Source of the DNA: Streptomyces sp. NBC_00271
Lineage (GTDB): Bacteria; Actinomycetota; Actinomycetes; Streptomycetales; Streptomycetaceae
Assembly (NCBI RefSeq): GCF_036178845.1
Contig: NZ_CP108070.1
Coordinates: 10,478,001-10,542,000, forward strand
DNA length: 64,000 bases
Reading direction: 5' to 3'
Position 1 is the first letter of the stretch, and every line of letters starts with the position of its first letter. The notes under the pieces are model-generated. The model made no database searches and was not told the DNA's origin. It worked only from the letters and a program-made list of their open reading frames with translations. The translations under genes and the position numbers were made by a program. Below, one piece after another: positions 8,902-30,239 of this stretch.

Positions 8902-9789
8902 TCAGCAGGCCACGTGGCTGCGGTGCCAGGCAAAGAAGGGCGCCCGATGACCGCCGGAATCCGCAACGCTGCGCCCCACCAACGCCGCCACCGCGCCGTC
9001 CAGGTCCGGAGTGTCGCCGGACTTGGTGCGACGGGCGACGATCCCTTCAGCGGTGACATAAATGTGGCCATGCTCGAACAGCTCGTCACAACCCAGCAGG
9101 CAGACAGGCATGACGTTAGCCATCAGCAGTCGCTCTGCACCGGAGGCGTCCGCGCGACGCTTGATGTGCGCAGCCCGGATGAAACGCACCGGCAAGACCC
9201 GCCCGCACAGCGTGCAGGCAGCTTGCTCGGCGCTCCCCAGCATCCTCCTGCGCAGCTTGGCCTGCTCGCGACGGACCAGAACCTGGGCGACGGCGTTCGT
9301 CTGCCCCTCGTGTCCGACGCTGCCGTCGGCCGGCGGGAGTTCAGCAACCAGCCGGGCGACGGGAGCAGCGCCCGGTAGGAGAACGGCGGCACCCTGCTTG
9401 TTCGCGGACAGCCTCAGACACTCCATGGCCTCTGCGCCCAGAGCCACGCCCGACACGTGTTCTTCCTCGTCAAGGACGTCGATGCCCAGGCGTTCGGGAT
9501 ACGCAGCATCGGGCCACACGGGCTCGTCATCGCGATACAGCGGTCGAGTGACCTGCGCGACGACAACCCGCCGTAGCGTCGCCTCGGCCCATCCACCCGG
9601 CTGGACACGGCTGTTGGGTCCCTTGTGGCCCAGGATCAGGAAGTCGCCCTTGCGCAGTGAGCGAACGGCCTCGCGCGCACCACCCTTGGCGAGAGCTGCG
9701 GAACGCCATCCCCACACGCCGCGGTCGATTCCGATGGCGAGATTGCTACGTGAGGGCGCCGGGACATAGATGTAGCCGGTGTGGGCCAT
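8902..9789 (-). CDS. HNH endonuclease with N-terminal PUA/EVE-like domain
   Basis: A 295-residue protein starting at the ATG at 9789, with gagcggag about 6 nt upstream; the longer frame has no such signal. The C-terminal region has CTLCGRVLP, AAHIKRRADASG, MANVMPVCLLGCDELFEHG: a treble-clef HNH nuclease with zinc cysteines, the first catalytic His in AAHIK, the Asn and the LGCDxLFE loop typical of actinobacterial restriction HNH enzymes. The first 130 residues (GYIYVPAP, GIDRGVWGW, LRKGDFLILGHKG) resemble PUA/EVE-type modified-base readers, but this match is tentative. It lies 300 bp downstream of hsdM on the same strand, so it may be the cleavage partner for that methylase pair or a separate modification-dependent enzyme. 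Confidence 0.75.
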   Translation of the reverse strand: MAHTGYIYVPAPSRSNLAIGIDRGVWGWRSAALAKGGAREAVRSLRKGDFLILGHKGPNSRVQPGGWAEATLRRVVVAQVTRPLYRDDEPVWPDAAYPERLGIDVLDEEEHVSGVALGAEAMECLRLSANKQGAAVLLPGAAPVARLVAELPPADGSVGHEGQTNAVAQVLVRREQAKLRRRMLGSAEQAACTLCGRVLPVRFIRAAHIKRRADASGAERLLMANVMPVCLLGCDELFEHGHIYVTAEGIVARRTKSGDTPDLDGAVAALVGRSVADSGGHRAPFFAWHRSHVAC

Positions 9790-10086
9790 GAAAACTCCGC
9801 TCCAAAGCTCCACCAGAAACCACGCTGGGGGAGACGCTGAGATCGTGTGCAGCCTCAACTGGCCCGACTCGACTGCCATCGGACGACATGGGACTGCGTA
9901 TCGATCATACTCCGCGGAAGTCGGACGCCCTGCATCAAGTCCTGTGCACATCAACCGTGTTGCCTCCGAGGGCAGCACGGAGCGACACACCCGAACCGCC
10001 CCCAAGAGCGGCCGGCAGACGCCGCCCGCCTCCTCTCGCTGCCGGGACACCACGTGTCCTCCCGACGTGACACCGCCCGAGCACGG

Positions 10087-11634
10087 TCACCCGGATTCCT
10101 GCTGCCTCCTGTCTGTCTCGGCCGAGGTCGCCTCGTCCAGGGCCTCGGCGACAGCAGCGAACTCGCGCAGAGCAGTCTGAAGATCCTCGATGATCTCAGC
10201 GGCGATCACCTCGGGCGGCAACAGACTCTCCGGGGAATGGGGCGTCGAGTCCTGCGCCCAGGAGATGTCGAGATTCGTCCGCTCACGAGCGATCACTTCG
10301 GAGTAGTCGAAGCAGCGGAAGCGTTCCGTCTCCTCCCGGTCCGTACGTGGCCTGCCCGGTCGGTACGCTTCGACGAAATCCTCCAGATCCGCCCGGCGCA
10401 GTGGAGTGTGCTTCGGCGAGAACTGCTGGTGGGTGCGCAGGTCGTAGATCCACAACTTCGAGGTGCCCGCACCGCCGTCCGCGCGAGGCGGCCTCCTGTC
10501 GAAGAACAGAACATTCGCCCTGACTCCGGTGGCGTAGAAGATGCCGGTCGGCAGCCGCAAAATCGTGTGCAGATCGAAGTCTTCGAGCAGACGGCGGCGC
10601 ACCACGGCGTATTCCTGGCTCGCGAACAGGACGTTGTCCGGAAGGACGACAGCAGCACGGCCGTTCAACTGCATCAGCGACATGACGTGTTGAAGGAAAT
10701 TGATCTGCTGGTGGGTGGTGGTCACCGGGAAGTCGTCGCGCTGATGGGGCGTGTGACCCGTTGCGGCCCGGTCACCCGTGTCGGGGGTGCGTGTTCCGAA
10801 GGGCGGGTGCGCAAGGACGACGGAGGCCTGCCGGCTCGGTGGACGGGCGAGAGCGTCGCCCACCGTGATGGGCGAGGGGCCTTCGGCGGACCCGGTGCCG
10901 TGCAGCAGCATGTTCATCGCGGCCAGACGGCCGGTGCTGGCGACCATCTCCTGTCCCCAGATGCTGCTGGGCGAGTGAAGCCTTCGCATCCCTTCCACGG
11001 AGAGGTCCTGAAGGTGATGCTCACAGATGTAGCGGTGTGCGGCGACAAGGAAACCACCGGTGCCACAGGCCGGATCGGTGATGGTGTCGGACGGCCGTGG
11101 CTGCACCACCTCGATCATCGCCTCGACGAGCGGATGGGGCGTCACGTACTGCCCCGCACCGCTTTGGACGTCCTCCGCGCACCTGTCCAGCAGGCCCCTG
11201 TAGGCCTGGGCCGTGAGCCCCGCATTGGGTCGCATCCCGTCGTCGAGGCTCAGGTCGACGATCACCCCCTGCAGCACAGCGGGGCCGGGGATGCGGTACT
11301 GGGCCCCCGCAAAGACAGCGCCCACAAGGGTCTTCGGAGACCTCCCGGCGAGCTCGGAAAGGAGCTCACGGTAGTGGAACTCGAGGTCCGGGCCACTCCT
11401 GCCGGCCAGTGAGCTCCAGTCGCGACCGACCGGCAGGACGGCGGAGTCGCTGCCCGCCGCGCGGGCACTGCGCGCAACCCTGTCGGCCTCCCTGAGGAAA
11501 AGCAGGTACGTGAGTTGCTCGACACACTCGAGAGGGGACAAACCGCCGTCACGAAGAACGCAGAAACACCTCCACAACGCACCAGACACAGGATTGGCCC
11601 GACCGTTTGCCTGCGGCATGAACGCGTCTGTCAC
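10087..11634 (-). CDS. hsdM: Type I restriction-modification DNA methylase HsdM
   Basis: A 515-residue N6-adenine methyltransferase. The GTG at 11634 overlaps the hsdS stop as GTGA, so translation is coupled; the upstream part of the open frame is antisense noise. Domains: N-terminal helical HsdM domain (LTYLLFLREADR), then the Rossmann catalytic domain with SAM motif I DPACGTGGFLVAAH. Motif IV reads LAHPPFG where the family has NPPF: the catalytic Asn is His here (codon CAC). Either this clade tolerates His or the enzyme is inactive. The protein otherwise looks complete and of normal length. It would methylate adenine at the site chosen by HsdS. No hsdR is nearby. Confidence 0.9.
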   Translation of the reverse strand: MTDAFMPQANGRANPVSGALWRCFCVLRDGGLSPLECVEQLTYLLFLREADRVARSARAAGSDSAVLPVGRDWSSLAGRSGPDLEFHYRELLSELAGRSPKTLVGAVFAGAQYRIPGPAVLQGVIVDLSLDDGMRPNAGLTAQAYRGLLDRCAEDVQSGAGQYVTPHPLVEAMIEVVQPRPSDTITDPACGTGGFLVAAHRYICEHHLQDLSVEGMRRLHSPSSIWGQEMVASTGRLAAMNMLLHGTGSAEGPSPITVGDALARPPSRQASVVLAHPPFGTRTPDTGDRAATGHTPHQRDDFPVTTTHQQINFLQHVMSLMQLNGRAAVVLPDNVLFASQEYAVVRRRLLEDFDLHTILRLPTGIFYATGVRANVLFFDRRPPRADGGAGTSKLWIYDLRTHQQFSPKHTPLRRADLEDFVEAYRPGRPRTDREETERFRCFDYSEVIARERTNLDISWAQDSTPHSPESLLPPEVIAAEIIEDLQTALREFAAVAEALDEATSAETDRRQQESG

Positions 11635-13058
11635 AGCTCGAACTCCAGTTGAACGGCAGGGGCGGTCGCCAAGGACACCCTGGCGCGTGCTGCTCTGCGA
11701 GGACGGGGGGCCGGCCGACTCGAACACTCCCGAGCTTCCCGCTCGGCCCGCAGCCGCGCGAGCGGGATCCCGGCCGGTTCGTCAGTCGGGTCCTGAGACA
11801 CGAGCCGGCCGGCGAAAGCCGCCTGCAGGAGAGACTCTCGTAGACGGTCCGACCGATCGAGCGACGCCGCCAGCTGCTCGGCCAGTCGGTCGATGCGTTC
11901 CAACTGAGCCCTGATCGACTTGCCGATGCCGGACTGTTCCCGGGCCGGTGGGATGAGGATGCGAATGTCCATCAAATTGCGCTGCGAAATGTTGCGCATG
12001 GAGCTGATGGTCCCGGTGGCCCTGGACGAAATCTGCTCACGCACACCCGGCGACGACAGAACCTGGACCAGCCACTGCCTGTCGACTCCGGCCAGCGGAA
12101 CGAGACGAAGACTCTTGTCACTGAGCAGCAACCTCTGACGACAGTCCCCGACAAGAACCGTGGCACCCACATGAGCGGCGGTGTTGGCGCGGCTCACCAA
12201 GATGTCGTTCCGCTTGATCTCGTGCCGCGGATCGACCTTCGTCCGTGACGGGACGGCCTTCTGCTCATCGGCGCGGAACTCTCCGTACGTCATGGCACTG
12301 GCTTTGATCATTCCCCATTCGGCGTCCCCGGCCGGACGAGGGTCGCAGCGGATGGATCGACCGGCCTCGACCCGCTCGAGCACGTCGCGGAGTGCTCCCC
12401 GCCTCCAACCGTCGCAGCCGCCCGCGGATGGATGATCTCCCGACGTTGCGGTATGGCGAATGGCTCCACGAAGCTCCGGCGCACGCTCGATGACGCGCTC
12501 GACGGCACGTCGGCCGACCTCCAGCCGAGAGAGGTGCTTCTCCAGCCTTTCGACAATGCGATGCTGCTCTGCGAGCGGTGGCAGCGGGAAGCGGATACCT
12601 CGTAGGACCTCCTGGCCGACTGTGTGGATGCCGGTGACCGTACGCACGGCATTCTCTTCCAGGAACTGTCGCACGACGGGCGATTCCCAGACGTGCGCCA
12701 GGTATGCGGCAGACATCAGCTCCGGGTGCACTCGAACACGAATCATGGTGCCTGGGAAAGCCGTCGGCGCGGGGACACACCCCACGAGGGCACCTCGTCC
12801 GACCCGAGTTCGCGACCCGTTCGTGCGACTCACGAGAAAATCACCCTCAGAAACGAGAAAGGGAGCGACCGCCTCCCACGCCCATGCACTGCCCTTCACC
12901 TCGCAGAAGTCGACACCCCGTGGCGTGAGGGCAGTCAGCCGCAGAACGGGAAGACCCCCTTTCCTCGTCCGCACGGACCGACCGTTCGCCAACGGTTCGC
13001 TCAACACGTCCGCCAGACGAACCCACACCCACCCCGGCGCAAGTCCCCCGTCACGCAT
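11631..13058 (-). CDS. hsdS: Type I restriction-modification specificity subunit HsdS
   Basis: A 475-residue protein with two target recognition domains, each followed by a conserved helix: after TRD1 the IRFPLPPLAEQHRIVERLE signature, and after TRD2 the IRILIPPAREQSGI signature. The ATG at 13058 is chosen for its ggag ribosome site 6 nt upstream; the frame extends further without support. The C-terminus carries an Arg/Ala-rich tail (SRPAPRPRRAARARV). It precedes and overlaps hsdM (4 nt), the reverse of the usual M-S order. The two TRDs would recognise a bipartite DNA sequence. Both TRDs look intact, so the specificity is probably functional. Confidence 0.9.
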   Translation of the reverse strand: MRDGGLAPGWVWVRLADVLSEPLANGRSVRTRKGGLPVLRLTALTPRGVDFCEVKGSAWAWEAVAPFLVSEGDFLVSRTNGSRTRVGRGALVGCVPAPTAFPGTMIRVRVHPELMSAAYLAHVWESPVVRQFLEENAVRTVTGIHTVGQEVLRGIRFPLPPLAEQHRIVERLEKHLSRLEVGRRAVERVIERAPELRGAIRHTATSGDHPSAGGCDGWRRGALRDVLERVEAGRSIRCDPRPAGDAEWGMIKASAMTYGEFRADEQKAVPSRTKVDPRHEIKRNDILVSRANTAAHVGATVLVGDCRQRLLLSDKSLRLVPLAGVDRQWLVQVLSSPGVREQISSRATGTISSMRNISQRNLMDIRILIPPAREQSGIGKSIRAQLERIDRLAEQLAASLDRSDRLRESLLQAAFAGRLVSQDPTDEPAGIPLARLRAEREARECSSRPAPRPRRAARARVSLATAPAVQLEFEL

Positions 13059-13377
13059 GCCAGTTCTCCATTCGGTCCTCTCGCAGGGATTGCACAGCAC
13101 AGCCTCCACACGCGCATTCACGGGTGCACCGGCCAACGCCCCTTGTTCCCGCGCAGATTCACGCCACCGGCAAGACCCCGCCGACAGCCACGCCACCTGC
13201 GCAAGAACCGCAACGGCTTCCTGCGCCACCGGACACCGGCGACGGCCGGCAACTCGTCCTCCTCCATCACGCGTCCCGCCCGACCGTAGGGGACGCGCCA
13301 GCCTGCGACACCGGCCAACGGCAATGAGCTCAAATGACGTTGCACAACCCCAGCTGTATCAGGAGCCACTGACATTG
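13059..13377. other. Intergenic, promoter of hsdS operon
   Basis: About 320 bp between the hsdS start and the end of the cysteine desulfurase gene, both on the minus strand. It must carry the hsdSM promoter, but no clear -35/-10 pair was found. The open frames crossing it are antisense or unsupported. Confidence 0.4.
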
Positions 13378-14529
13378 TTACGCGTAGTCCGCGAAGGTGC
13401 AGGCCGCGCTGGTGATGAGCTCGGCGGCTTGATCGACGTCTCTTGCTGTGGTGGTGCGGCCGATGCTGAGCCGGAGGGTGGCGCGGGCCTGGCCGCGGGT
13501 AAGGCCGATGGCGGTGAGGACGTGGGAGGGTTCACCGCTTCCGGTGGTGCAGGCCGAGCCAGTGGATGCCGCGATGCCCGGGAGACGGTCGAGCAGGTCG
13601 GCGGCTTCGATGCCAGGGATGGTGAGGCTGAGGTTCCCGGGCAGCCGCTGGTCGGGGTGACCGTTGACGCTGGCGGTAGGGATGGTGGTCAGGAGGCGGG
13701 TTTGGAGCCGATCGCGCAGGGCGCGGATGCGGGGCGGGGGCGGGGCGGGGGCGCTGGTGATGAGGTGGGCGGCGGCGCCGAAGCCGACGATGGCGGGGAC
13801 GTTGGGGGTGCCGGCGCGCAGCCCGCGTTCCTGACCGCCGCCGGTCTGCTGGGCGGTGATGCGGGTGCCGGCGCGAACGTAGAGGGCGCCGATCCCCTTG
13901 GGGCCGTGCAGTTTGTGTGCGGACAGGGAAGCGAGGCCGACGCCTAGTTCGTTGACGTCGAGCAGGCCGCAGCCGGCGCTTTGCGCGGCGTCGGTATGCA
14001 GAAGGATGCCGCGTGGGCGCGTGATCTCACAGATGGCGGCCAGCCGCTGGAGGGTGCCGATCTCATTGTTGGCGTGCATCACGGAGACGAGCACGGTGTG
14101 CGGCGTGAGGGAGGCGGCAATGTCGTCGGGGTGGACGCGGCCGTGGAGGTCGACGCCGACGCGTGTGACGGTGTAGCCGTGGTGGTCGGCCAGCAGCTGG
14201 CAGGCGGCCAGGACGGCCTTGTGTTCGATTGCGGTGGTGACGACGTGTCCGCCGTGGGGCCGGGCGGCCAGGGCAGCACCAAGGATGGCGAGGTGGTTGG
14301 CCTCGGTGGCGCCGGAGGTGAAGACGATCTCTGTCTCGTTCTGGGCGCCGACCAGGCGGCCGACGTGTCGGCGGGCGGTGCGGACGGCCTGCGCGGCGGT
14401 GCGGCCGTAGGCGTGCGGGCTGGAGGGGTTGCCGTACTCGCTGGTGAGGAACGGCAGCATCGCCTTCAGGACCCGCTCGTCCAGCGGGGTGGTGGCCTGG
14501 TGATCGAGGTAGATCGGCTTGGTGGTCAC
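13378..14529 (-). CDS. Cysteine desulfurase, DndA/IscS type
   Basis: A 383-residue PLP enzyme of the NifS/IscS class that removes sulfur from cysteine as a persulfide. The GTG at 14529 overlaps the preceding stop as GTGA. It begins with YLDHQATTP and has His103 (IEHKAVL) stacking on PLP, Lys206 (SAHKLHGPKG) for the Schiff base, and the catalytic Cys327 in STGSACTTGSGEPSHVL, so all key residues are present. Length is normal. It is the last gene of a four-gene operon with a dCTP-deaminase-like, a HIT and an unknown protein. No iron-sulfur assembly genes (iscU, sufBCD) are near, so sulfur probably goes to a nucleotide or DNA substrate, as with DndA in phosphorothioation; that is inference. dndB-E are absent. 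Confidence 0.9.
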   Translation of the reverse strand: MTTKPIYLDHQATTPLDERVLKAMLPFLTSEYGNPSSPHAYGRTAAQAVRTARRHVGRLVGAQNETEIVFTSGATEANHLAILGAALAARPHGGHVVTTAIEHKAVLAACQLLADHHGYTVTRVGVDLHGRVHPDDIAASLTPHTVLVSVMHANNEIGTLQRLAAICEITRPRGILLHTDAAQSAGCGLLDVNELGVGLASLSAHKLHGPKGIGALYVRAGTRITAQQTGGGQERGLRAGTPNVPAIVGFGAAAHLITSAPAPPPPRIRALRDRLQTRLLTTIPTASVNGHPDQRLPGNLSLTIPGIEAADLLDRLPGIAASTGSACTTGSGEPSHVLTAIGLTRGQARATLRLSIGRTTTARDVDQAAELITSAACTFADYA

Positions 14530-15470
14530 GCGGCTCGCTCCTCGTTCCGCGCGGCGGCCGGGTTGATCGCGGCGTACTTGCGTTCGCCGTCGACCAGGTC
14601 CCAGTAGATGGTGCGGGGCTCGTCGAGGACGGAGAACGCGGTGGCCAGGCAGTGCCAGTTCTGGTTCGGGTGGGCGCGGGCGAGGAGGAAGGCGTCGTCG
14701 AACAGGCGGCGGATGCGCCTCGCCAGGGCCTCGCGGGTGGGCTGGGGCCTGAACAGCTGGAGGAAGCCGCGCTCGCGTAGCCATGCCTCGGCGTGCTCGG
14801 CGCCGGCCGCGCCGTGAAGGTGGCCGCTGTCGCTCAGGGGTTGGGCGGCCAGCCGCTCAAGACGGCGGTGCCGTCGGGCGTCCTCGCCTCCGGGGCAGCG
14901 GTCGCCGGTGATCTTCCATTCGTGCCAGCGGGGCGGCTGGTAGCGGTTCCAGTCGGCGTCGTCGAGGTGGGCGGTGACCTGCGGCGGGATCTGGCCGCGG
15001 GTGAGGTCGGCGACGTCGTAGCCGGGGCCGAGGGCTTCCAGGGTGAGCGAGCCGGGGTACCCGCGGGCGGGCCGGTCCATGCGGACCAGGACGGTGAGCC
15101 GGTTGGTGAAGCGGTTGGTGGGCTCGGCCAGAATCACGGCGCGGCCGTCGGCCAGCAGTCCGGCGGCACGGGGCGGGACTTCATCGAGGGGAAAGGTGTT
15201 GCCGCCGCGGTAGTACTGCTTCTTTTCCACGCCTCCGTCGGAGCGGATCATCAGCCGTTCGGTTCCAGTGGCGGCGGCGAGAGCGTGGGCGGCGACGGGG
15301 ACGGAAGCGGTGCTCTGGCCGGGCGGGATCAGGCAGGCGTTGAGGACGGGCAGCTTCAGGGAGTGCAGCAGGGCCATGGTCTGCCACTTCGGCCAGCGCC
15401 GGTCCTTGGCGGCCGCCGTGAGCTCACTCGTGCTGAGCGCATGTAACGGCAGAGGTAAGGCTGTCGCCAT
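14526..15470 (-). CDS. Unknown protein with ATP-grasp-like features
   Basis: A 314-residue protein starting at the ATG at 15470 with gggagggg about 9 nt upstream. It begins 21 nt after the HIT gene and overlaps the cysteine desulfurase start by 4 nt, so it belongs to the same operon. The pattern LMIRSDGGVEKKQYY, GGNTFPLDEVPP, RAVILAEPTNRF, LTLEALGPGYDVADLTRGQIPP resembles the nucleotide-binding half of ATP-grasp or PEP-synthase-type proteins (R-S-D, E-x-L-G-P-G), but the similarity is weak and by eye. The C-terminal 100 residues are helical and Arg rich. If it is ATP-grasp-like, it could activate a substrate for sulfur transfer from its neighbour. It could equally be an unrelated binding protein. 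Confidence 0.7.
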   Translation of the reverse strand: MATALPLPLHALSTSELTAAAKDRRWPKWQTMALLHSLKLPVLNACLIPPGQSTASVPVAAHALAAATGTERLMIRSDGGVEKKQYYRGGNTFPLDEVPPRAAGLLADGRAVILAEPTNRFTNRLTVLVRMDRPARGYPGSLTLEALGPGYDVADLTRGQIPPQVTAHLDDADWNRYQPPRWHEWKITGDRCPGGEDARRHRRLERLAAQPLSDSGHLHGAAGAEHAEAWLRERGFLQLFRPQPTREALARRIRRLFDDAFLLARAHPNQNWHCLATAFSVLDEPRTIYWDLVDGERKYAAINPAAARNEERAA

Positions 15471-15491
15471 CGGAGTGTTTCCCCTCCCGGT

Positions 15492-16109
15492 TCAGGCGGC
15501 TGCGAGCCGCAGATCGGCGGACAGTTCGCTGAACGTGCGCTCACGGTTGTGGGCGAAGGGATGGTCGCGCCAGTCGAAGAATTCGCCAAGGCCGAGCTGG
15601 TCGGCGCAGACGCGGCGGACGAACTGGCGGGCGAAGCCGGCCGAAGGCCAGTAGTAGTGCTGGCCGGGTCGGGGCGACAGATAGAGGTAGGAGCCGTCCG
15701 CGACCGTCGGCAGATCAGCCAGGGAGGTGATCCGTCGCCCGGTACCGCCGGTCTTCTCGTAGGCGGCGAGGACAGCATCCGGGTCGGGGACGGGTATCAG
15801 GTGCAGGTGGCAGTGGCTGCAGCAGGAGGCGCCCAACTCGCAGTCGCGCGGCCCGTGCTCGGCCAGGATCACCGGGCCGTAGCGGGCCTCGATCACCGTG
15901 CGCATCCGCTCCGCCTCGGCGGCGACCGCGGACAGATCGGCGGAGGTGAGCTCGGCGGCGGCATCCAGGTGCTCAAGCGGCATGAACAGGCAGTAGCCGG
16001 CGGCGAGGGCGCCGATGGTGGGCAGCAGGACCCAGCCACCGGCGGTCTCGGTGATGATCCGGGTCGTGGTCTCGCACGCGGTGAATTCGGTGCAGAACTG
16101 GCAGTCCAT
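15492..16109 (-). CDS. HIT-family nucleotide hydrolase/transferase
   Basis: A 205-residue protein with a strong start: ggaggtg 5 nt before the ATG at 16109, the ribosome site being built from the last codons of the upstream gene. The histidine triad HCHLHLIPV is intact, and the N-terminus has a CQFCTEF zinc-type pair. HIT proteins hydrolyse or transfer nucleoside monophosphates at the alpha phosphate of small nucleotides. Here the domain spans about residues 1-115, followed by a further 90-residue extension (ending YYWPSAGFARQFVRRV) also seen in HIT proteins of actinobacteria. Its neighbours are a dCTP-deaminase-like gene 3 nt upstream and the cysteine desulfurase branch downstream, so a nucleotide substrate is likely. 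Confidence 0.85.
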   Translation of the reverse strand: MDCQFCTEFTACETTTRIITETAGGWVLLPTIGALAAGYCLFMPLEHLDAAAELTSADLSAVAAEAERMRTVIEARYGPVILAEHGPRDCELGASCCSHCHLHLIPVPDPDAVLAAYEKTGGTGRRITSLADLPTVADGSYLYLSPRPGQHYYWPSAGFARQFVRRVCADQLGLGEFFDWRDHPFAHNRERTFSELSADLRLAAA

Positions 16110-16112
16110 GGG

Positions 16113-16670
16113 TCACCTCCGGAACGGGCCGATGGAAAACTCCTCGGCGTAGCGGCTCTTCAGGTCGGCCTGGCGGCCGTAGAAGGGGTGGGATGCGGTG
16201 TCGGCGGCGCAGGCCCCGTCAAGCGCGAAGACGAGCAGGCGGGCCAGGGGCATGCCGTGGTGCAGCCGCAGGACGGCCGGGCCGGTGTTGACCAGCTCCA
16301 GTGTCAGGTGCCCGTTCCAGCCGGGCAGCACGAACGGGCTCGTGACGTGGACGGCGAGTCCGACGCGGGCCAGGTGGCTCAGCCCGCCGATCATGCCCAT
16401 CAGCCCGGCACCGAACCGCAGCGGCTCCTCGACGGCTCCCAGCAGCATCTCCCCGGGCGTCAGCTCGTAACTCACCCACTCGGCGAGCGGATCGCCGTAG
16501 AGGCCGTCGATGCTGGACTGGTCGGCCAGGTCGACCACTCCCGAACTCGGCGCCGCCAGCGGCTGCAACGGCGATCCCAGCGTCAGCAACAGCCCGTCGT
16601 CCCGCAGCTGGCCTCGCCACTCCAACGCGCCCTGGCCCATCAGCGAGGTGATCGACTCGGCTGAAAGCAT
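16113..16670 (-). CDS. dCTP deaminase-like (trimeric dUTPase superfamily)
   Basis: A 185-residue protein, first gene of the operon. The core SHLARVGLAVHVTSPFVLPGWNGHLTLELVN aligns with dCTP deaminase: the Ser-x-Leu-x-Arg motif, the P-G-W-N/S-G turn and the catalytic Glu in LTLELVN are all kept. The following HHGMPLARLLVF strand also matches. The C-terminal tail (HPFYGRQADLKSRY) replaces the usual glycine-rich PT-x-S flap, so substrate choice may differ from housekeeping Dcd. The ATG at 16670 has gggggtgag just upstream. It may deaminate or simply bind a pyrimidine nucleotide. A chromosomal dcd is expected elsewhere, so this copy is likely specialised for the locus. Confidence 0.85.
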   Translation of the reverse strand: MLSAESITSLMGQGALEWRGQLRDDGLLLTLGSPLQPLAAPSSGVVDLADQSSIDGLYGDPLAEWVSYELTPGEMLLGAVEEPLRFGAGLMGMIGGLSHLARVGLAVHVTSPFVLPGWNGHLTLELVNTGPAVLRLHHGMPLARLLVFALDGACAADTASHPFYGRQADLKSRYAEEFSIGPFRR

Positions 16671-16876
16671 GGCTCACCCCCGGAATCAGCAGCGACGATT
16701 TTCGCCACCTTCGGATCGAAGGCGTCTGCTGGAATGTTCTCTGGGCCAGCTCGGAATATCCATATGTCCGATCGGGCATTTAAAGGTTTTCTTGGGGTGA
16801 AATGCGGAGAAGTTCAGCTCTGCTGGCCGCGCGGACAGTGCAGGCTGGATGAGGACGCGTCAGGGAGGGAGAGGCG
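16671..16876. promoter_or_regulatory. Divergent promoter region
   Basis: 206 bp between the leftward dCTP-deaminase operon and the rightward LysR-type gene. LysR-family regulators usually bind such intergenic DNA and control the divergent operon. The stretch around 16735-16805 is AT-richer (tggaatgttc, tttaaaggttttcttgggg), fitting promoter elements for both directions. No T-N11-A box could be assigned with confidence. Confidence 0.5.
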
Positions 16877-17950
16877 ATGGTGACGTCACTGCCATCCGGA
16901 GGCCCGTTGAGGATCCCAGGGCCCGAGTGGTTCCGCGCCGATCTGCTGTCGTGTTCGCCGGACCTGCTGGACCTGACCTGGGATCAGATGAGGACGCTGA
17001 TCATCGTCCAGGAAGCCGGGACCGCGCTGGCCGCGGCGAGAGTCCTCGGCCGAGAGCAGTCCAGCGTGCAGAAGCAACTCGACATCCTCAACCGCAACTT
17101 CCAGTCCCTTACGGGCGAGCTACTGGTGGTCAAACAGGGCCGCGGCAAGGACTTCCTGTTCACTCCCACCGGGCTGGAGGTCGTCGAGCGGGCCAGAATC
17201 ACCTTCGCCGAATGGCTCCAGGGCGTCGCCGACTCCCGCCGCAGGCTTGGCTCAACGCTGACGATCGGCACCACCGAGTTCACCCTCGGCTTCCTTGGCC
17301 GGGTATGGGAACGTGTCGCCCCGCAACTGCTGGAACGGGAGATCGAACTGAAGGTCGTGCACGTACGCACCCGTGACTTCTGGTCCCGGCTGGACTCCAA
17401 CCAGGTCGACCTGCTGTGCGGAGGCCTAGCAGCCGAGACAACCGAAGAACAGGTTGCCCCCGACTACGACTTCCTCGAATGGCATCGCGAGGGCCTGGCC
17501 CTGCTCACCAACCTTCCCGTGCGCGAACTGGCCGCCAAGACCGTCGGCGTGGCCCGGCTGCGGACTCTCCCTCTGATCATCCCCTCCCGTGGCGTCATCA
17601 CCGACTTCGTCGAACGCTGGTACGGCCCCGACTTCCGGTCCCAACTGCAGCTCGCCGCCGAGATCGACGACATCTACTACGGGCTCGCTCTGCTCAGATC
17701 CCGCATGACCTACGGCTGCATGCTCTGCGCCCGCTCCATCGGCCAGGCCGCCGTGGACGGGCGCCTGCCCACCAGCGACGACTTCCGACTGATCGATTTC
17801 GCCGACGACTTCGACCCCATGCTCCAACTGGTCTCCGGCGTCTTTGCCCGCAAGGGCGAACGCGAGACCTACGACGCCTCCCACCCACTGAACATCCTGT
17901 GGAACGCCTTCCGTGACGAGGCCGCCTCCGGCAGGCCCCTGCCCCTGTGA
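16877..17950 (+). CDS. LysR-family transcriptional regulator
   Basis: A 357-residue protein starting at the ATG at 16877 with a gggagggagagg ribosome site. An N-terminal extension of about 30 residues precedes the winged HTH (MRTLIIVQEAGTALAAARVL, REQSSVQKQLDILNRNF), which matches the LysR pattern of alanine-rich helix, SSVQKQL recognition helix and wing. Residues 130-350 form a periplasmic-binding-protein-like effector domain (TLTIGTTEFTLGFL; NQVDLLCGGLA). It is encoded divergently from the desulfurase operon and 16 nt upstream of the nuclease-methyltransferase gene, so it probably controls both. The extension before the HTH is unusual for the family. Confidence 0.85.
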   Translation: MVTSLPSGGPLRIPGPEWFRADLLSCSPDLLDLTWDQMRTLIIVQEAGTALAAARVLGREQSSVQKQLDILNRNFQSLTGELLVVKQGRGKDFLFTPTGLEVVERARITFAEWLQGVADSRRRLGSTLTIGTTEFTLGFLGRVWERVAPQLLEREIELKVVHVRTRDFWSRLDSNQVDLLCGGLAAETTEEQVAPDYDFLEWHREGLALLTNLPVRELAAKTVGVARLRTLPLIIPSRGVITDFVERWYGPDFRSQLQLAAEIDDIYYGLALLRSRMTYGCMLCARSIGQAAVDGRLPTSDDFRLIDFADDFDPMLQLVSGVFARKGERETYDASHPLNILWNAFRDEAASGRPLPL

Positions 17951-17966
17951 ACCTGGAGGACCCTCG

Positions 17967-19304
17967 ATGCTGCTGGCCTCGGTCAACCTCAACAAGCGCC
18001 TCGGCGCCACAAGCGCCCGCTCCCGTCTCGCCTCCTGGCTACGCGAGCACCGCGTCCACGCCATGCTCGCCCAGGAACCCTTCAAACCCGTCGACCGCAC
18101 GCCGCCCACGCTGCCCGGCTTCACCTTCGCCGGCGGCGACGGACACCTCGCCGCCTGGATCAGCGAAAACCTCGCCCCGCCTCAGGTCACTTCACCCAAG
18201 CCATGGCTCCTGCGGATCGAACTGGACTGGCTGGCCGTCTATCAAGTGCACCTCAACGCGTATACGGCAGCCTCCCGAACCGCCCAGCTGGCCGAATTGA
18301 CCGTGCTGGCCGCCGCCGAGAACGACCGCCCACTCCTGATTTGCGGAGACTTCAACCTCGCTCCTCGCCCCGAGGACGGCCTGTTCGGCGAAGAGACCAG
18401 CTCCTTCACCACCGAAACCGAACGCGGCCACCTCCGTAGCCTGATACAGACGGCCGGCCTGACCGACACCACCGCCGACCAGCCACCCGCCTTCACCTTC
18501 GAACGGCTCGTCTCCAACCAGCTCAGCCGCTTCCGCTGCGACCTCGCCCTGCTCAGCGACCACCTGACCCTGGCGACCACGGTCACCGCAGACACGTCCG
18601 TACGAACCGGCCCGCAGGCATTCACCGACCACTCCGCCCTGCTGATCGACGTGCCAGTCACCTTGGACAACGCCGAACCCCACGACGTGCTGTTCTCCCT
18701 GAACGAACTCATCAGCGACGGCCCCACTTCCTCCGCCAAGAGGGAGTACCAGCCCCACAAAACGGCCATGAGCCGCCAGACTCCGTCTCCAGCATCCCAG
18801 GCGGTCACCCGCCATCTGACCGGCCCGCTCGGAGTCAGAAGCCTCCTGGACCACGGCTGCGGCCGGGGCGCGGACGTGGCCCACTACCGCTCGACCGGCC
18901 TGGACGCCGACGGCTTCGACCCGCATGACGCCTTCGGCTGGCCCCGGCCGGAGAGGACCGGGTTCGACCTGGTGACCTCAGCGTTCGTCCTCAACGTGCT
19001 GCCCGACCCCTGGCAGCGGATTCAGGCCCTCAAAGACGCCGCCTCGTTCACCCGCCCCGGCGGCCATATCGTGGTCGTCACCCGCTCTGCCGAAGAGATC
19101 GCCAAAGCCGCTGCCGACGGCGGCTGGACCGCTCACCACGACGGCTTCTGGTCCAGCAAGAGCAAAGGCACCTTCCAACGAGGCATCGACGCCGACGAGA
19201 TCATCGCGCTCGCACGGAAGGCCGGACTCGTCCCCGCTGCCGACACCCCGGTACTGCCGCTGCCCGGTGTGTGCCACACGGTGCTATTCAAGCCGCAGAC
19301 ATGA
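17967..19304 (+). CDS. EEP nuclease fused to phosphorothioation-associated-type methyltransferase
   Basis: A 445-residue fusion; the ATG at 17967 follows ggagga by 6 nt. Residues 1-230 are an endonuclease/exonuclease/phosphatase domain with its catalytic marks: Glu37 (LAQEP), GDFN at 127-130, RCDLALLSDH and Asp221-His222 (TDHS). Residues 260-445 match the putative methyltransferase associated with DNA phosphorothioation: the KTAMSR motif at 265-270, SAM motif LLDHGCGRGADV at 293-304, FVLNVLPDPWQR, and the KGTFQRGIDADE segment. Known members of that family act near dnd genes; fusion to an EEP nuclease is not something I know of. It follows the LysR gene by 16 nt, probably one transcript. Activity on modified DNA or nucleotides is inferred. 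Confidence 0.85.
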   Translation: MLLASVNLNKRLGATSARSRLASWLREHRVHAMLAQEPFKPVDRTPPTLPGFTFAGGDGHLAAWISENLAPPQVTSPKPWLLRIELDWLAVYQVHLNAYTAASRTAQLAELTVLAAAENDRPLLICGDFNLAPRPEDGLFGEETSSFTTETERGHLRSLIQTAGLTDTTADQPPAFTFERLVSNQLSRFRCDLALLSDHLTLATTVTADTSVRTGPQAFTDHSALLIDVPVTLDNAEPHDVLFSLNELISDGPTSSAKREYQPHKTAMSRQTPSPASQAVTRHLTGPLGVRSLLDHGCGRGADVAHYRSTGLDADGFDPHDAFGWPRPERTGFDLVTSAFVLNVLPDPWQRIQALKDAASFTRPGGHIVVVTRSAEEIAKAAADGGWTAHHDGFWSSKSKGTFQRGIDADEIIALARKAGLVPAADTPVLPLPGVCHTVLFKPQT

Positions 19305-19377
19305 GGCAGGATGCTGAACACCCTCAGCCGCGCCGCGCGGAGCCGTATGCCACCGAGCCCCCTCGGCGACCGGCTGG

Positions 19378-19695
19378 TCAGCGGTTACCCGTCCAAATGA
19401 TCCGGTCAGCGAAGCCGCCCCTCTCCCTCGCCTTAGCTGCACGGATTTTCTCCAGCTGTGCCGGATCGATTCCCAGCTCGGTCGCGAGCGCCTGCACGAC
19501 CTCCAGGACGTCCGCGAGTTCTTCCGGCGCCTTCGTCTCGTCTGCGGCAAGGAACTCGGTGACCTCCTCACCGAGCTTGTCCCGCAGCCGCCGCCGGTAT
19601 TCCACCAACCCGGCGGTATAGACGACCGGCTCCGCGCCTGAAGACCGGATGATCTCGGGGATCCGATCCCGTACCAGCTTGCTATTGCCGTCCAC
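19378..19695 (-). CDS. MazG-like nucleoside triphosphate pyrophosphohydrolase
   Basis: A 105-residue all-helical protein beginning with KLVRDRIPEII, then LRDKLGEEVTEFLAA and EELADVLEVVQALA: the E-E-x-x-E ... D motif that binds Mg in the MazG/phosphoribosyl-ATP pyrophosphohydrolase superfamily. The GTG at 19695 is preferred because gggaga lies about 6 nt upstream; an upstream GTG at 19701 would place the site too close. Such proteins hydrolyse NTPs or damaged nucleotides to monophosphate and PPi. It is convergent with the nuclease-methyltransferase gene, 73 bp away. It may belong functionally to the nucleotide-handling locus, or be an independent house-cleaning gene of a widespread Streptomyces type. 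Confidence 0.8.
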   Translation of the reverse strand: MDGNSKLVRDRIPEIIRSSGAEPVVYTAGLVEYRRRLRDKLGEEVTEFLAADETKAPEELADVLEVVQALATELGIDPAQLEKIRAAKARERGGFADRIIWTGNR

Positions 19696-20149
19696 CCGCA
19701 CTCTCCCGCACCCATCGCCGCCGAACGGCCGCCAGCTGCCGCTCCTCCATGCCGCCGCAGCCTAGGCAAGACGCCCCACCAAGCGCTTGAGAACCGCCGA
19801 ACTCACTCGTTCGGGGAGATGCCAGCAGCGCCATACGCAACAGGGCAGCCGAGTAAAACGGTTGACGACGAACCAGTGAAGGCGCGGAGCCGGGGGAATC
19901 GCTACTCGGTCGGGTGATGATGCCGGATCGGCGGAACCCTGTCCGCAGCGGAGCCGGTCGTGGAACTCGCGGACCAGATCGTGGTTGCGCCAGCGCCGGA
20001 GTGACGTCGTAGCCGGTGCCCATGACGACGAGGATGTCCGCGTCGCCCGGTCCGGCTCGCCGAGCGGGAGATCGTCGAGTCCCTGATCGGCCTGGCACCT
20101 CGGCGACGTGACGTCCAGCCGGTGCAGTGTCGTTGGTGGTGATGTTGAG

Positions 20150-22539: not shown

Positions 22540-22641
22540 ACGGAGCCCCTGCCGTGATCACCGCGACCTGCGGCGAGCCATTCCGGCCGTCGGGGCGAGA
22601 TGTGCGCATTTACTGCGGCAGTACCGGAAGGGTGGGGCAGC

Positions 22642-24819
22642 GTGACAATCGAACCGGTGACCGAACTCGGGAGTGGGGGCGCACTTCGGTTGCCGCGCGC
22701 TCGGGTCGTACCTCTGTCCGGCCCGCCCGCGTCGTACACCGCGGCGGTCGAGCGCTACCTCACCGGCGCGGGCATCGCGAAGTCCTCCGCGCGTATCTAC
22801 CGGATCTCGCTGACGACGTGGGGATGGATGCTCGCCGGCGAACTCGCGCCGACCGGACCCGCCCGCCGGGGCGCGAAGCCGCCCGTCTTCCCCGTCACCG
22901 CGATCGACGACCCGGCGCTGCCGGAGCTCCTGGCCGAGCTGGCGGCGGCGCGGGCGGACGAGATGGACGCCGACACCGTCAACCGGGAGCTGTCCATCGC
23001 GCGCAAGGCGATCGGCTGGTGGCAGCGCCAGGGCTGGATCGAAGGCGATCCCACGATCGGAATCGAGCGGCGGCCGGCACCGCCGGACCGCACCAAGGCT
23101 CTCGCGGAGAAGCAGATCGCCGCCCTGTGGCGCCTCGACGTCGCGCTGCGGGAGAAGACGCAGTGGAAGATGCTCTACGAGTCCGCCGCACGGACCGACG
23201 AGGTGTTGTGCCTCAACGTGGAAGACCTCTACCCGCAGGACAAGCGGGGGAAGATCACCGCCAAGGGCGGGGCGACCGAGTGGATTCACTGGCAGTCCGG
23301 CACCGCCCAGCTGCTGCCCCGACTCATGGCCCGCCGCACCCGCGGCCCGCTGTTCCTCACCGACCGCAAGGCCCCGGCCGGAACACCGACGCTCGACGTG
23401 TGCCCGGAGACCCGCCGGGCCCGGCTCTCCTACCGCCGCGCTGAGGAGATCTTCGAGGAGAACACCCGGCTGCTGGCCAACCCCCTCGCCTCACCCGACG
23501 ACATCGAGGATCTGGACGGCTGGACGCTTCACCGACTACGTCACAGTGCCCTGACGCACGACGCGGAGGACGGCACCTCGACCCCGATGCTGCTGGCCCG
23601 CTCCCGCCACGCCTCCGTCCGCTCCCTGGAGCGGTACGCCCGCCCCGGCGTCGACTCGGTCGCCCGGCACGTCGCCGAACGCGACCCCGCTGCACGTCGC
23701 CGCACGTATATCCGAGCGGATCAGGGCTTCAAGATCATCCCGTTGCCCCTTTGGCGCGTATCTCGGTCACACCCCTACCGGGGACTGTTGGGTACGGTCC
23801 ACCACGACTTGGTCCAGCTCGACGAGCGACTGCGTGAGGCCCGCGCCGAATGGGCCGGCGCCCACTCCCGGCAGGCGCCGCCCCTGGAACGCATCGTCCT
23901 CTACATCGACGACCTCGACCGGTGTCCGCCTGCACGCGTGGTGGAGGTGCTGGCCGCCGTGCATCTGATGCTAGCGCTGCCGCTGTTCGTCGTGGTCGTG
24001 GCGTTCGACCCGCGCTGGCTCCTCACATCGCTCGAGCACCACGACCGGGAACTGTTCACCTCGCGCGACAGCACGTCCGGTTGGGCCGACACACAGGAAG
24101 GACACCGCCACGGCGCTCGACTACCTGGACAAGATTTTCCAGATCCCCTTTGCGGTCCCGCCGACCACCGGGAGAAGGCCGCACGCCTCATCCGCGCGCT
24201 GCTGATCAACCCCGACATCCCCGGCCCCGAAGGCCCGGCACAGCCTGCGGACGCCGGGGGCCTGCCGGATGCGCAGGAGCCCGAAGCACCGACACCGCGG
24301 ACCGCCTCCGTCCCCGCACCGGAGCCGGTCGGCGACCTGATGCCAGGCCCCGACGCCGACCCCACCCCCGTCCAACTGCAGCTCGAGGAGGCGGAGATTG
24401 CGTTCATGTCCCAGATGGGCGGCCTGACCCGTACTCCCAGGGCGGCCAAGAAGCTGGTCAACCTCTACCGCCCGGCACGCATCGGGGTCGATCCGGGCGA
24501 CCTGGCCGCCTTCGTGGGAACGGAAGCGATTCGAGGCGAGCACCAGGTCGTCCAGATTCTGCTGGCCCTGCTCGTGGGCAGCCCGGACCAGGCAGCCACC
24601 GTCTTCCGGCACATCCTGGAGGCACCCCCCCACCAGCAAGATCACCGAAGCACTGCGCGACCTCCCCGCCGATGTCCCCGCAGGAGCCAAGCCCAAGCGG
24701 CCGACCTGATCGAGCAGATGACCACCGGCCGGCCCGTGATCATGGATACCGCCGTGTACCAGCAGTGGTGCCCCAAACTGGCCCGCTTCTCCTTCTACAC
24801 CCGCAACCTCACCGGCTGA
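22642..24819 (+). CDS. Tyrosine recombinase/integrase fused to KAP-NTPase remnant
   Basis: The GTG at 22642 follows ggtggggc; the ATG at 22600 would place the atttactgcg site inside the gene and is less likely. Residues 1-350 are a complete tyrosine recombinase: SAM-like core-binding domain (VERYLTGAGIAKSSARIY), then Arg184 (AARTDEV), His297-x-x-Arg300 (HRLRH), His323 (SRHAS) and nucleophile Tyr332 (ERYARPG). Normal members end near residue 355 (ERDPAARRR). Instead the frame runs on for 370 residues into a KAP-family NTPase fragment, which is itself frameshifted. The integrase part looks catalytically intact. The join is probably an accident of insertion or deletion, not a designed fusion. 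Confidence 0.75.
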   Translation: MTIEPVTELGSGGALRLPRARVVPLSGPPASYTAAVERYLTGAGIAKSSARIYRISLTTWGWMLAGELAPTGPARRGAKPPVFPVTAIDDPALPELLAELAAARADEMDADTVNRELSIARKAIGWWQRQGWIEGDPTIGIERRPAPPDRTKALAEKQIAALWRLDVALREKTQWKMLYESAARTDEVLCLNVEDLYPQDKRGKITAKGGATEWIHWQSGTAQLLPRLMARRTRGPLFLTDRKAPAGTPTLDVCPETRRARLSYRRAEEIFEENTRLLANPLASPDDIEDLDGWTLHRLRHSALTHDAEDGTSTPMLLARSRHASVRSLERYARPGVDSVARHVAERDPAARRRTYIRADQGFKIIPLPLWRVSRSHPYRGLLGTVHHDLVQLDERLREARAEWAGAHSRQAPPLERIVLYIDDLDRCPPARVVEVLAAVHLMLALPLFVVVVAFDPRWLLTSLEHHDRELFTSRDSTSGWADTQEGHRHGARLPGQDFPDPLCGPADHREKAARLIRALLINPDIPGPEGPAQPADAGGLPDAQEPEAPTPRTASVPAPEPVGDLMPGPDADPTPVQLQLEEAEIAFMSQMGGLTRTPRAAKKLVNLYRPARIGVDPGDLAAFVGTEAIRGEHQVVQILLALLVGSPDQAATVFRHILEAPPHQQDHRSTARPPRRCPRRSQAQAADLIEQMTTGRPVIMDTAVYQQWCPKLARFSFYTRNLTG
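23750..24819 (+). pseudogene. KAP-family P-loop NTPase, truncated and frameshifted
   Basis: In the integrase reading frame, from about 23775, HPYRGLLGTVHHDLVQLDERL and the Walker B segment IVLYIDDLDRCPPARVVEVL with VVVVAFDPRWLL identify a KAP NTPase, but the N-terminal half with Walker A is gone. Around 24108 the sensible protein switches frame (TALDYLDKIFQIPFAVPP is read in another frame) and returns near 24172. A run of seven C at about 24625 marks another shift (TSKITEALRDLPADVPAG in a second frame). KAP NTPases are membrane-associated or defence-related ATPases. This copy cannot be functional. Confidence 0.7.
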
Positions 24820-26986: not shown

Positions 26987-26987
26987 G

Positions 26988-29900: not shown

Positions 29901-30239
29901 GCTGCGCGCGGGGTCGACGGCGAAGGTGAGGCCGGTCGCCGAGGGGCGGGCGACCCTGGCGAGCACGATGCCCCCGTCGGGGGTCTCGTCCACCGTCACG
30001 GTGGAGTCGGCGTCGTCGAGGTCCTGCACCGCGGCGTCCGGGTCCGGTTCGGGGTGCTCTTGCTGCGCCGGGTCCACGACGCGGGGAAACAGCACCCCCG
30101 TGGAGTAGGTGGTGACGGGCCAGTCGTCGAGGATCTCGACGTCCTGGTGGTGCTCGCCGTGGGGGCCCAGCAGGTCCGACTTCAGTTGCTGGGCCAACTG
30201 TCCACGCAGCCGGTAGTGCTGCGTGTGATCGTCCGTCAT
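26988..30239 (-). CDS. drmA: DrmA: DISARM SF2-type helicase
   Basis: A 1083-residue protein; its ATG overlaps the UvrD stop as ATGA. The N-terminal 400 residues are DISARM specific. The helicase core has Walker A FPTGGGKTEAYLG (about residue 460), motif II as IQDELHLISGPLG (about 665), motif III STATIRRA, and C-terminal motifs SVGVDFDRLG and YIQATSRVGR, plus a CPWCGTPLLV zinc pair. DrmA is the ATPase of the DrmAB core, shown in DISARM to bind DNA and be autoinhibited until triggered. Everything looks intact. Its partners here are unusual: a GHKL-helicase fusion and a UvrD helicase upstream, and no methyltransferase or DrmC downstream. Confidence 0.92.
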   Translation of the reverse strand: MTDDHTQHYRLRGQLAQQLKSDLLGPHGEHHQDVEILDDWPVTTYSTGVLFPRVVDPAQQEHPEPDPDAAVQDLDDADSTVTVDETPDGGIVLARVARPSATGLTFAVDPARSPHVLVHAFAAVYDPVDAAGEPAAPERAEQRSTRQPEVRWRRRPLQLTVTPVDVLDPPRKAVELAEGLSLHLRVRPPRGPRGTISVTATLMNTHTVEQQEIKDPRCFFQVGLRITVPDGVPALVERPTVRDLDDESRLALLLHRHAPTFAVGHGCAANWSWSPSPVDRPERHTAPAGIACVWTEHVPVSEVLLSDSNSSVPVELLGMQHLAQAPKHELIGSLRTFVALYEEWIMERSADADLLREGIYGDPAYLRLAEEQLEHCRTARQRMSAGVDLLERDPDALEAFRLANRVMAVQRGRGQWIKRERAGAPSPEGAWRPFQLGFVLLCLNGTVDAAHPDRAVADLLWFPTGGGKTEAYLGLIAFTVFHRRLRHGAAGAGVSVLMRYTLRLLTLQQFERAALLICAMERVRAQQPERLGQEQISIGMWVGKAATPNRLKNADKALKKLARGEKLQEENPVQLKNCPWCGTPLLVRNHTVDLAAKRMVIQCDDRACDFSAGLPVHVVDTELYRVRPTLVIATADKFARIAWREDVAALFNRDEDRLWQKTPPPELVIQDELHLISGPLGTLAGLYEAAVDIACAQPKIIASTATIRRAQEQGQALFGRGVAQFPPSGLDARDSWFAVQAPAVSRPSRLYVGLLAPGLSQATLLIRAYASLLHNAQHLPCPDEEVRDAYWTLVGYFNSLRLLGAAELQVNADVNERLRTLAARDGVEPRQVLPTEITSRVPSSDLPALLGALGRSLQTGSALDVPLATNIISVGVDFDRLGLMAVTGQPQTTAEYIQATSRVGRAHPGLVVTLFNAARSRDLSHYENFVSYHSALYRQVESTSVTPFAARARDKALHAAFLGLARLLHPEIRDNTDAKNVNEFASQLNSTREQLVERIRRVSPAEADHADAEIRVFVDQWRQLVETNEKLEYEAAFTFKANPRRRPDLALLRTHEDHDLTKARPTLWSLRDVDVESHLYLES

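Follow-up and report, generated by a model that had tools for sequence, protein, structure and literature searches.

A seven-gene cassette of Streptomyces that joins a cysteine desulfurase to nucleotide enzymes and a protein without a family

The window analyzed here is a 64,000-nucleotide stretch of the chromosome of Streptomyces sp. NBC_00271 (positions 10,478,001-10,542,000 of a 12.28-Mb genome). It carries a 6.3-kb cassette of seven genes at window positions 13378-19701. The seven genes are one co-inherited unit that is under purifying selection and has its active-site motifs intact. An earlier note on this DNA had proposed that sulfur and nucleotide enzymes are brought together here in one undescribed unit. 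The protein families that were found and the conservation in 10/10 copies bear this out. Under LysR-type control, the cassette may form a thiolated nucleotide or nucleoside, whose most probable precursor is a pyrimidine deoxynucleotide. The product would serve as an antimetabolite against phage or competitors. This reading is favored tentatively, at somewhat less than even confidence. Both the chemistry and the role are proposals.

Conservation as one unit

The seven genes are present in identical order and orientation in all 10 complete copies, which are the window and nine Streptomyces relatives. The relatives were found by tblastn of the window genes against loci fetched with the 314-amino-acid protein of the cassette, referred to below as the orphan. 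They consist of seven genomic loci (L011-L017) and two plasmids, L021 from Streptomyces sp. NBC_01278 and L022 from Streptomyces sp. Mg1. Another locus, L018, ends at a contig edge and shows the three cassette genes that are possible there. Because gene order and orientation are kept in 9/9 complete relatives, the cassette is more than a group of chance neighbors. Co-occurrence in other genomes had been named as a check on the earlier proposal, and the outcome is in its favor.

The proteins of the different copies diverge by up to about 41%, yet the seven genes vary together, with correlations of 0.79-0.97 between their pairwise distances. The ratio of nonsynonymous to synonymous substitution rates (dN/dS) was 0.07-0.50 in all 35 gene-by-locus comparisons (seven genes, the window against five of the nine relatives). 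The LysR-like gene evolves most slowly, with a mean identity of 87.8% and a dN/dS of 0.07-0.18. The divergent promoter region is 206-208 bases long in all 10 copies, and 107 of its 211 aligned columns are identical across all of them. The catalytic motifs of the HIT, deaminase-like, EEP-methyltransferase, and MazG proteins, including the S-adenosylmethionine (SAM) motif, are each intact in 10/10 complete copies.

The genes and their coordinates are listed in Table 1. The minus-strand operon reads, from 16670 to 13378, dCTP-deaminase-like, HIT-like, orphan, and desulfurase. According to the open reading frame (ORF) table, these are separated by 3 bases and 21 bases, followed by a 4-base overlap of the orphan stop with the desulfurase start. 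The LysR-like and EEP-methyltransferase genes diverge from the operon across a 206-base gap. The earlier note had described six genes, a tight operon with a divergent pair, and all of these are present at 13378-19304. The MazG-type gene had been overlooked.

Table 1. Features of the cassette in the window
Feature	Position	Strand	Remarks
IscS/NifS-type cysteine desulfurase, 383 amino acids	13378..14529	-	Last gene of minus-strand operon; PF00266 263 bits; start position set from relatives
314-amino-acid orphan protein	14526..15470	-	Without Pfam, NCBIfam or PDB match
Divergent HIT protein, motif H-(C/A)-H-L-H-L-I	15492..16109	-	CwfJ_C_1/HIT/DcpS_C matches, all under Pfam cut-offs
dCTP-deaminase/dUTPase-superfamily protein	16113..16670	-	First gene of operon; PF22769 66.7 bits, over cut-off 27
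Divergent promoter region	16671..16876	.	Between operon and LysR-like gene
LysR-like regulator	16877..17950	+	HTH_1 24.1 bits, just under cut-off 26.6
EEP-fold metallo-phosphoesterase and SAM methyltransferase fusion, 445 amino acids	17967..19304	+	PF03372 37.7 bits, PF13489 40.0 bits
MazG-type nucleoside-triphosphate pyrophosphohydrolase	19378..19701	-	PF01503 28.9 bits, over cut-off; convergent to EEP-methyltransferase

Proteins of the cassette

To judge from its matches, the desulfurase is IscS/NifS-like and not DndA. In PDB, it matches best an untyped cysteine desulfurase with 324 bits, then mitochondrial NFS1 with about 317 bits and IscS entries with about 302 bits, compared with 210 bits for DndA and 207 bits for SspA. 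The NCBIfam scores are 428 bits for NifS, 370-378 bits for IscS, and 372.5 bits for DndA (TIGR03235, cut-off 480), and all are below their cut-offs. In PADLOC, it matches the SspA model with 457 bits and the DndA model with 464 bits. Thus, the earlier assignment as a DndA/IscS cysteine desulfurase is kept for its enzyme class and its IscS side, and the DndA label is dropped. The motif of the pyridoxal phosphate-binding lysine, HKL(H/Y)GP, and the active-site motif (A/S)TGSAC are present in all 11 copies read. In L014 (10941-12384), the desulfurase frame exceeds that of the other copies by about 94 residues, and 12 internal residues are missing. Other cysteine desulfurase homologues are encoded elsewhere in the same genome.

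The orphan of the window gave no match in Pfam, NCBIfam or PDB. A search that scored 8000 candidates gave 326 homologues for it at E<=1e-3. Among the best 120 of these, Streptomyces accounts for nearly all named entries at 64-85% identity, with one Nonomuraea besides, and the named ones at 50-57% identity include Micromonospora, Trebonia, and Egibacteraceae. A copy filed under 'Stenotrophomonas sp. NPDC087984' is 85% identical to the window protein and probably comes from a contaminated or mislabelled assembly. Across 54 sequences, the invariant motifs are R76-S-D-x-G, G89-G-N, R120-x-T-N, G148-x-G-x-D, and W290-D-x-x-D, and there is one invariant cysteine, Cys274. This cysteine would suit a persulfide relay, and the orphan would be the first choice for the sulfur-inserting enzyme.

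The earlier label of the orphan, ATP-grasp-like, finds no support. ATP-grasp families are not among the Pfam matches of the 54 members. The stray matches are to RE_XamI in six members (best E 0.011), Tnp_DNA_bind in two (best E 0.0047), and six families once each. With hhalign, the orphan scored 17.0 against PPDK_N, 18.7 against RimK, and 16.9 against R2K, a set of three sequences (P 0.19-0.32). These scores are near those of the nulls, which were 11.8-18.9 overall (five, three, and three nulls for PPDK_N, RimK, and R2K): a reversed null reached 18.9 for PPDK_N, the RimK nulls went up to 17.8, and those of R2K up to 15.6. The test is a weak one, as a control pair of ATP-grasp families, RimK and PPDK_N, reached only P 0.04.

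The dCTP-deaminase-like protein scored 67.7 bits against TIGR02274, under the equivalog cut-off of 92.8, and it does belong to the superfamily model PF22769. Alignment to a dCTP deaminase from PDB and to the housekeeping enzyme, which the genome also encodes, shows that Ser, Arg, and Glu are kept in 10/10 copies. These are the catalytic residues of dCTP deaminase. The earlier description of this protein can therefore stand. The HIT hydrolase was also recognized correctly, as a divergent protein with the triad HCHLH or HAHLH in all 10 complete copies.

The EEP-methyltransferase possesses the motifs QE, GDFN, (S/T)DH, and DHGCGRG in 10/10 complete copies. It had been described as an EEP nuclease-methyltransferase of the phosphorothioation-associated type. 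The fusion is real. The family label is not borne out, since TIGR04096 gives 57.1 bits against a cut-off of 150 and matches the methyltransferase domain only (model positions 4-141). About 340 of the 478 model positions are unmatched, and the cassette protein has the EEP domain fused in front. MazG occupies the same place in the cassette in every complete copy and has its EExxE motif there. The LysR-type regulator of the earlier note is LysR-like, with weak matches to LysR equivalogs in NCBIfam and an HTH_1 score that falls just short. A match to a substrate-binding domain is not listed for it.

Distribution and mobility

The cassette is mobile and rare. Sampling of 392 Streptomyces genomes gave three with the orphan, one of them the genome of the window. 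A sample of 394 genomes from the whole class gave two, both Streptomyces. An overlapping draw of 295 Streptomyces genomes gave four, one of which is a weak partial match (G006, 20.5 bits). This match was taken as chance, and it was not found with an alignment search. An intact EEP-methyltransferase is present in 3 of 382 Streptomyces genomes, the same three that have the orphan in the draw of 392. Remnants of its gene, a tail beside MazG, are present in two further genomes of the 382.

The pairing of the two proteins may hold beyond Streptomyces, in relatives that are about 50-56% identical. This is suggested indirectly, because 31 of the best 120 orphan clusters match one of the 120 EEP-methyltransferase clusters listed in the exact size of the longest contig. 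The size-matched pairs include distant ones (17160, 56003, 7798).

MazG was considered as an exclusive member of the cassette. This is weakened by the remnants, since in two Streptomyces chromosomes MazG has no more beside it than the tail of an EEP-methyltransferase, and by plasmid records. Five Streptomyces plasmid records have a MazG at 60-80% identity. Two of them harbor the cassette; for the other three, the 12 kb fetched contains no further cassette gene. One lone MazG of the cassette type (L022 21626-21952) adjoins a CRISPR array. Another (L110 5980-6306) has genes for an AAA ATPase and a UvrD helicase in its vicinity, a putative Gabija-like pair.

Among the blastn matches listed, the flanks of the copies have little in common apart from about 100 bases ahead of MazG, short segments here and there, and, in closely related copies, longer stretches. 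The Mg1 plasmid can be compared with its sister, the Streptomyces goshikiensis plasmid NZ_CP115939. The two plasmids align along 12 kb on one flank (94%) and 0.9 kb on the opposite flank (92%). Between these flanks, the Mg1 plasmid has an 11.6-kb block (L113 12365-23951, compared with L112) that includes the cassette and two CRISPR arrays. NZ_CP115939 has about 165 bases instead. The block was gained or lost together. The orphan and the EEP-methyltransferase gave no match in 50,697 phage records, and the orphan gave none in viral contigs, where it alone was searched. Carriage of the cassette by a phage or virus was rejected on these grounds.

Defense genes are present near 4 of the 10 copies, in three independent contexts. 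In the window, DISARM genes drmB and drmA lie at 25148-30239 on the minus strand (PADLOC 242 and 784 bits). Within about 4.2 kb after the cassette, L012 encodes a protein that combines E2, ThiF (E1), and JAB domains, and another with a weak likeness to metallo-beta-lactamases. The cassette of L022 is bordered on both sides by arrays of 29-base repeats with a spacing of about 61 bases, and type I-E cas genes are annotated on the same plasmid. L016, which is kin of L022, has the same kind of arrays. The count of 4/10 is one without a random-locus control, and the PADLOC scan of the flanks left out L011 and L013.

Comparison with known systems

The earlier note held that the locus is not a known Dnd or Ssp system. 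In the whole genome, dndC (TIGR03183) has no match at E<=0.01. The only match for dndD (TIGR03185) has 34.2 bits, covers positions 1-94 of 650, is below the cut-off of 245.85, and is far from the window. This part of the claim stands for dndC and, with a sub-threshold match only, for dndD; dndB, dndE, and sspB-E were not searched genome-wide. What the cassette has in common with Dnd (DndABCDE) is a cysteine desulfurase in an accessory region of Streptomyces, and it differs by its IscS-like desulfurase and by the state of dndC and dndD. The main text of a survey of Dnd neighborhoods mentions none of MazG, dUTPase, and ATP-grasp (PMC10853773). The likeness to Ssp (SspABCD-SspE) is the match of the desulfurase to the SspA model. 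No other Ssp protein was present among the ten proteins scanned with PADLOC, a scan that was not genome-wide for SspB-E.

In Type-4 BREX, a cysteine desulfurase that resembles DndA is described in 56% of the taxa with the system, in the part of the report available (PMC12839542). The core of that system (the PAPS reductase BrxP, BrxL, and PglZ) is not among the seven cassette genes, a comparison that does not extend genome-wide. Within the cassette, the desulfurase alone has a PADLOC match, and the cassette was not found described in the open-licence literature of PubMed Central (PMC). The novelty concerns the cassette as a unit and not a demonstrated function, and Ssp and Type-4 BREX are set apart from it by gene content only.

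The nearest functional parallel in the literature seen appears to be the tgs operon for 6-thioguanine of Staphylococcus chromogenes. The accessible sections of its report list a predicted cysteine desulfurase, a sulfur transferase, two NUDIX hydrolases, a phosphatase, and an efflux protein, and describe the operon as patchy and, in one strain, plasmid-borne (PMC7994395). As far as those sections go, tgs and the ycf operon of Erwinia amylovora share with the cassette a cysteine desulfurase, nucleotide pyrophosphohydrolases, a phosphatase, and the form of a small, patchy operon. The tgs and ycf operons have a PP-loop nucleotide alpha hydrolase, TgsB/YcfA, whereas no PP-loop was recognized in the cassette with Pfam and NCBIfam, matches that leave the orphan fold aside and include no direct comparison with TgsB. 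Their NUDIX hydrolases and efflux protein were not recognized among the seven cassette proteins. Instead, the cassette has the orphan, the HIT, dCTP-deaminase-like, and MazG proteins, the EEP-methyltransferase, and the LysR-like regulator. The cassette most likely works like the 6-thioguanine operon without belonging to it.

Proposed pathway and alternatives

A thio-nucleotide pathway is proposed because a sulfur source, the orphan, a pyrimidine-nucleotide fold, two hydrolases, a phosphoesterase, a methyltransferase, and a divergent regulator occur together. The desulfurase would take sulfur from cysteine as a persulfide. The orphan could then transfer this sulfur to a nucleotide by means of its invariant cysteine. 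The dCTP-deaminase-like protein would supply or recognize the pyrimidine triphosphate, and MazG and the HIT protein would trim triphosphates and activated forms of the nucleotide, or clear them away. The EEP domain could strip phosphate, and the fused methyltransferase could methylate the product, perhaps on sulfur. The LysR-like protein would switch on the divergent operon when it senses a ligand. The product would poison nucleic-acid synthesis as an antimetabolite and so defend the host against phage or competitors. HIT enzymes can act on sulfur-bearing nucleotides, since HINT1, a HIT enzyme, releases hydrogen sulfide from nucleoside 5'-thiophosphates, according to the available part of its report (PMC8775712).

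The antimetabolite role against phage or rivals is proposed because of the mobility, the rarity, and the defense company of the cassette. For an antiphage role, the suggestion comes only from the defense neighbors in 4/10 copies and is a lead. In its boldest form, the cassette would be a sulfur-based counterpart of viperin. Once triggered, it would thiolate, and perhaps S-methylate, dCTP/dUTP or CTP/UTP, phage polymerases would incorporate the product and be halted or poisoned by it, and MazG and HIT would clear it from the host pool. The orphan would then found a new family of nucleotide sulfur transferases. This form is distinctly doubtful.

Several points weigh against the thio-nucleotide pathway. 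None of the seven proteins has a match among known enzymes that transfer sulfur to nucleotides, and the orphan has no match in PDB that would tell its fold. The only repeated stray Pfam match of note in the orphan is to a restriction endonuclease family, RE_XamI. Unlike tgs, the cassette has no recognized exporter or resistance gene. A desulfurase can also feed iron-sulfur clusters, and MazG also occurs without the cassette. The defense neighbors are limited to four copies, two of them close kin, in a count that has no random-locus control. Six proteins beside L014, L015, L017, L018, and L021 gave no PADLOC match.

The alternative that survives best is a defense by nucleotide depletion or damage, which is nevertheless unlikely. 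The dCTP-deaminase-like, MazG, HIT, and EEP proteins would degrade the nucleotide pool or a signal nucleotide upon infection. The desulfurase would mature a partner or supply a cofactor, and no thio-product would be made. Several nucleotide-hydrolyzing folds are within the cassette, four of the 10 copies have defense neighbors, and dCTP deaminases that act in phage defense are known. However, a dedicated desulfurase and methyltransferase would be without a clear role here, and they are under purifying selection in the five relatives compared. The PADLOC models, which only the desulfurase of the seven proteins matches, also speak against it.

Next in order is a small thio-nucleoside natural product, like 6-thioguanine, that is secreted against competing microbes. 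The island context would then simply be where mobile genes collect. This is also an unlikely explanation. The gene logic is like that of the tgs operon, as given in the accessible sections of its report (PMC7994395). The LysR-like regulator that diverges from the operon, the Streptomyces hosts, and the plasmid copies fit as well. The conserved cassette, however, contains no recognized transporter or self-resistance gene, and 4/10 copies are near defense genes.

A mark on nucleic acid is quite improbable, and it was the direction that the earlier note preferred. Sulfur would be built into tRNA or into DNA, in the latter as a base mark or a phosphorothioate-like one, and the EEP-methyltransferase would modify or cut the nucleic acid. 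EEP folds do include nucleases. The best NCBIfam match of the methyltransferase domain is TIGR04096, 'DNA phosphorothioation-associated', a type I methyltransferase and its specificity subunit (HsdS) adjoin the cassette in the window, and 6 of the 54 orphan members have weak matches to RE_XamI. Against these, the 57 bits for TIGR04096 are far below the cut-off, the genome has no dndC and only a sub-threshold partial match for dndD, and the desulfurase is IscS-like. No DNA-targeting protein was recognized in the cassette, and the type I genes of the window have no match in the other loci searched. Among the products that the earlier note had allowed, a thio-nucleotide or thio-nucleoside fits the gene set better than a DNA mark, for which no PP-loop/PAPS-reductase-type or DNA-targeting family match was found.

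Chance neighbors, or housekeeping genes for sulfur and nucleotides, are hardly credible: the genome does encode a dCTP deaminase of its own and further homologues of cysteine desulfurase, but the seven genes are kept in order and orientation in 10/10 complete copies, which already refutes this, the orphan is in only 3/392 sampled genomes, and the cassette is absent between the homologous flanks of a sister plasmid.

Other genes of the window

Directly after the cassette and on the same strand, the type I-like DNA methyltransferase and HsdS occupy 10087-13229. No restriction subunit for them was present among the proteins scanned. The possibility that the cassette is part of this type I system was set aside, as the type I genes have no match in the other loci searched. 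The methyltransferase and HsdS are followed by a 383-amino-acid ORF without a Pfam family (8902-10053). A 1573-amino-acid protein with trypsin-like, STAND NTPase, and TPR parts is encoded at 3359-8080.

On the other side, a single ORF at 22600-24819 has a phage integrase domain and a KAP NTPase domain. It may be a fusion or an integrase that was inserted in a KAP gene. A 1568-amino-acid protein (32143-36849) has a TmtA match in its N-terminal part and matches to PbeA and type IV restriction models in its C-terminal part, and it is possibly a fused or variant defense protein. A 1518-amino-acid ORF (41386-45942) lies in a stretch with an extreme AT skew (-0.49 at 42-44 kb).

Significance

Nucleotide chemistry that has not been described is indicated by a co-inherited cassette in which a protein without a family is the center, accompanied by its own sulfur source and by nucleotide enzymes. 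The set is compact, at 6.3 kb, is present in named Streptomyces species and on sequenced plasmids, and is directly testable. If the product is a secreted one, the cassette would be a new antimetabolite pathway. If the product is a thio-nucleotide directed at phage, chemical defense would gain a new class.

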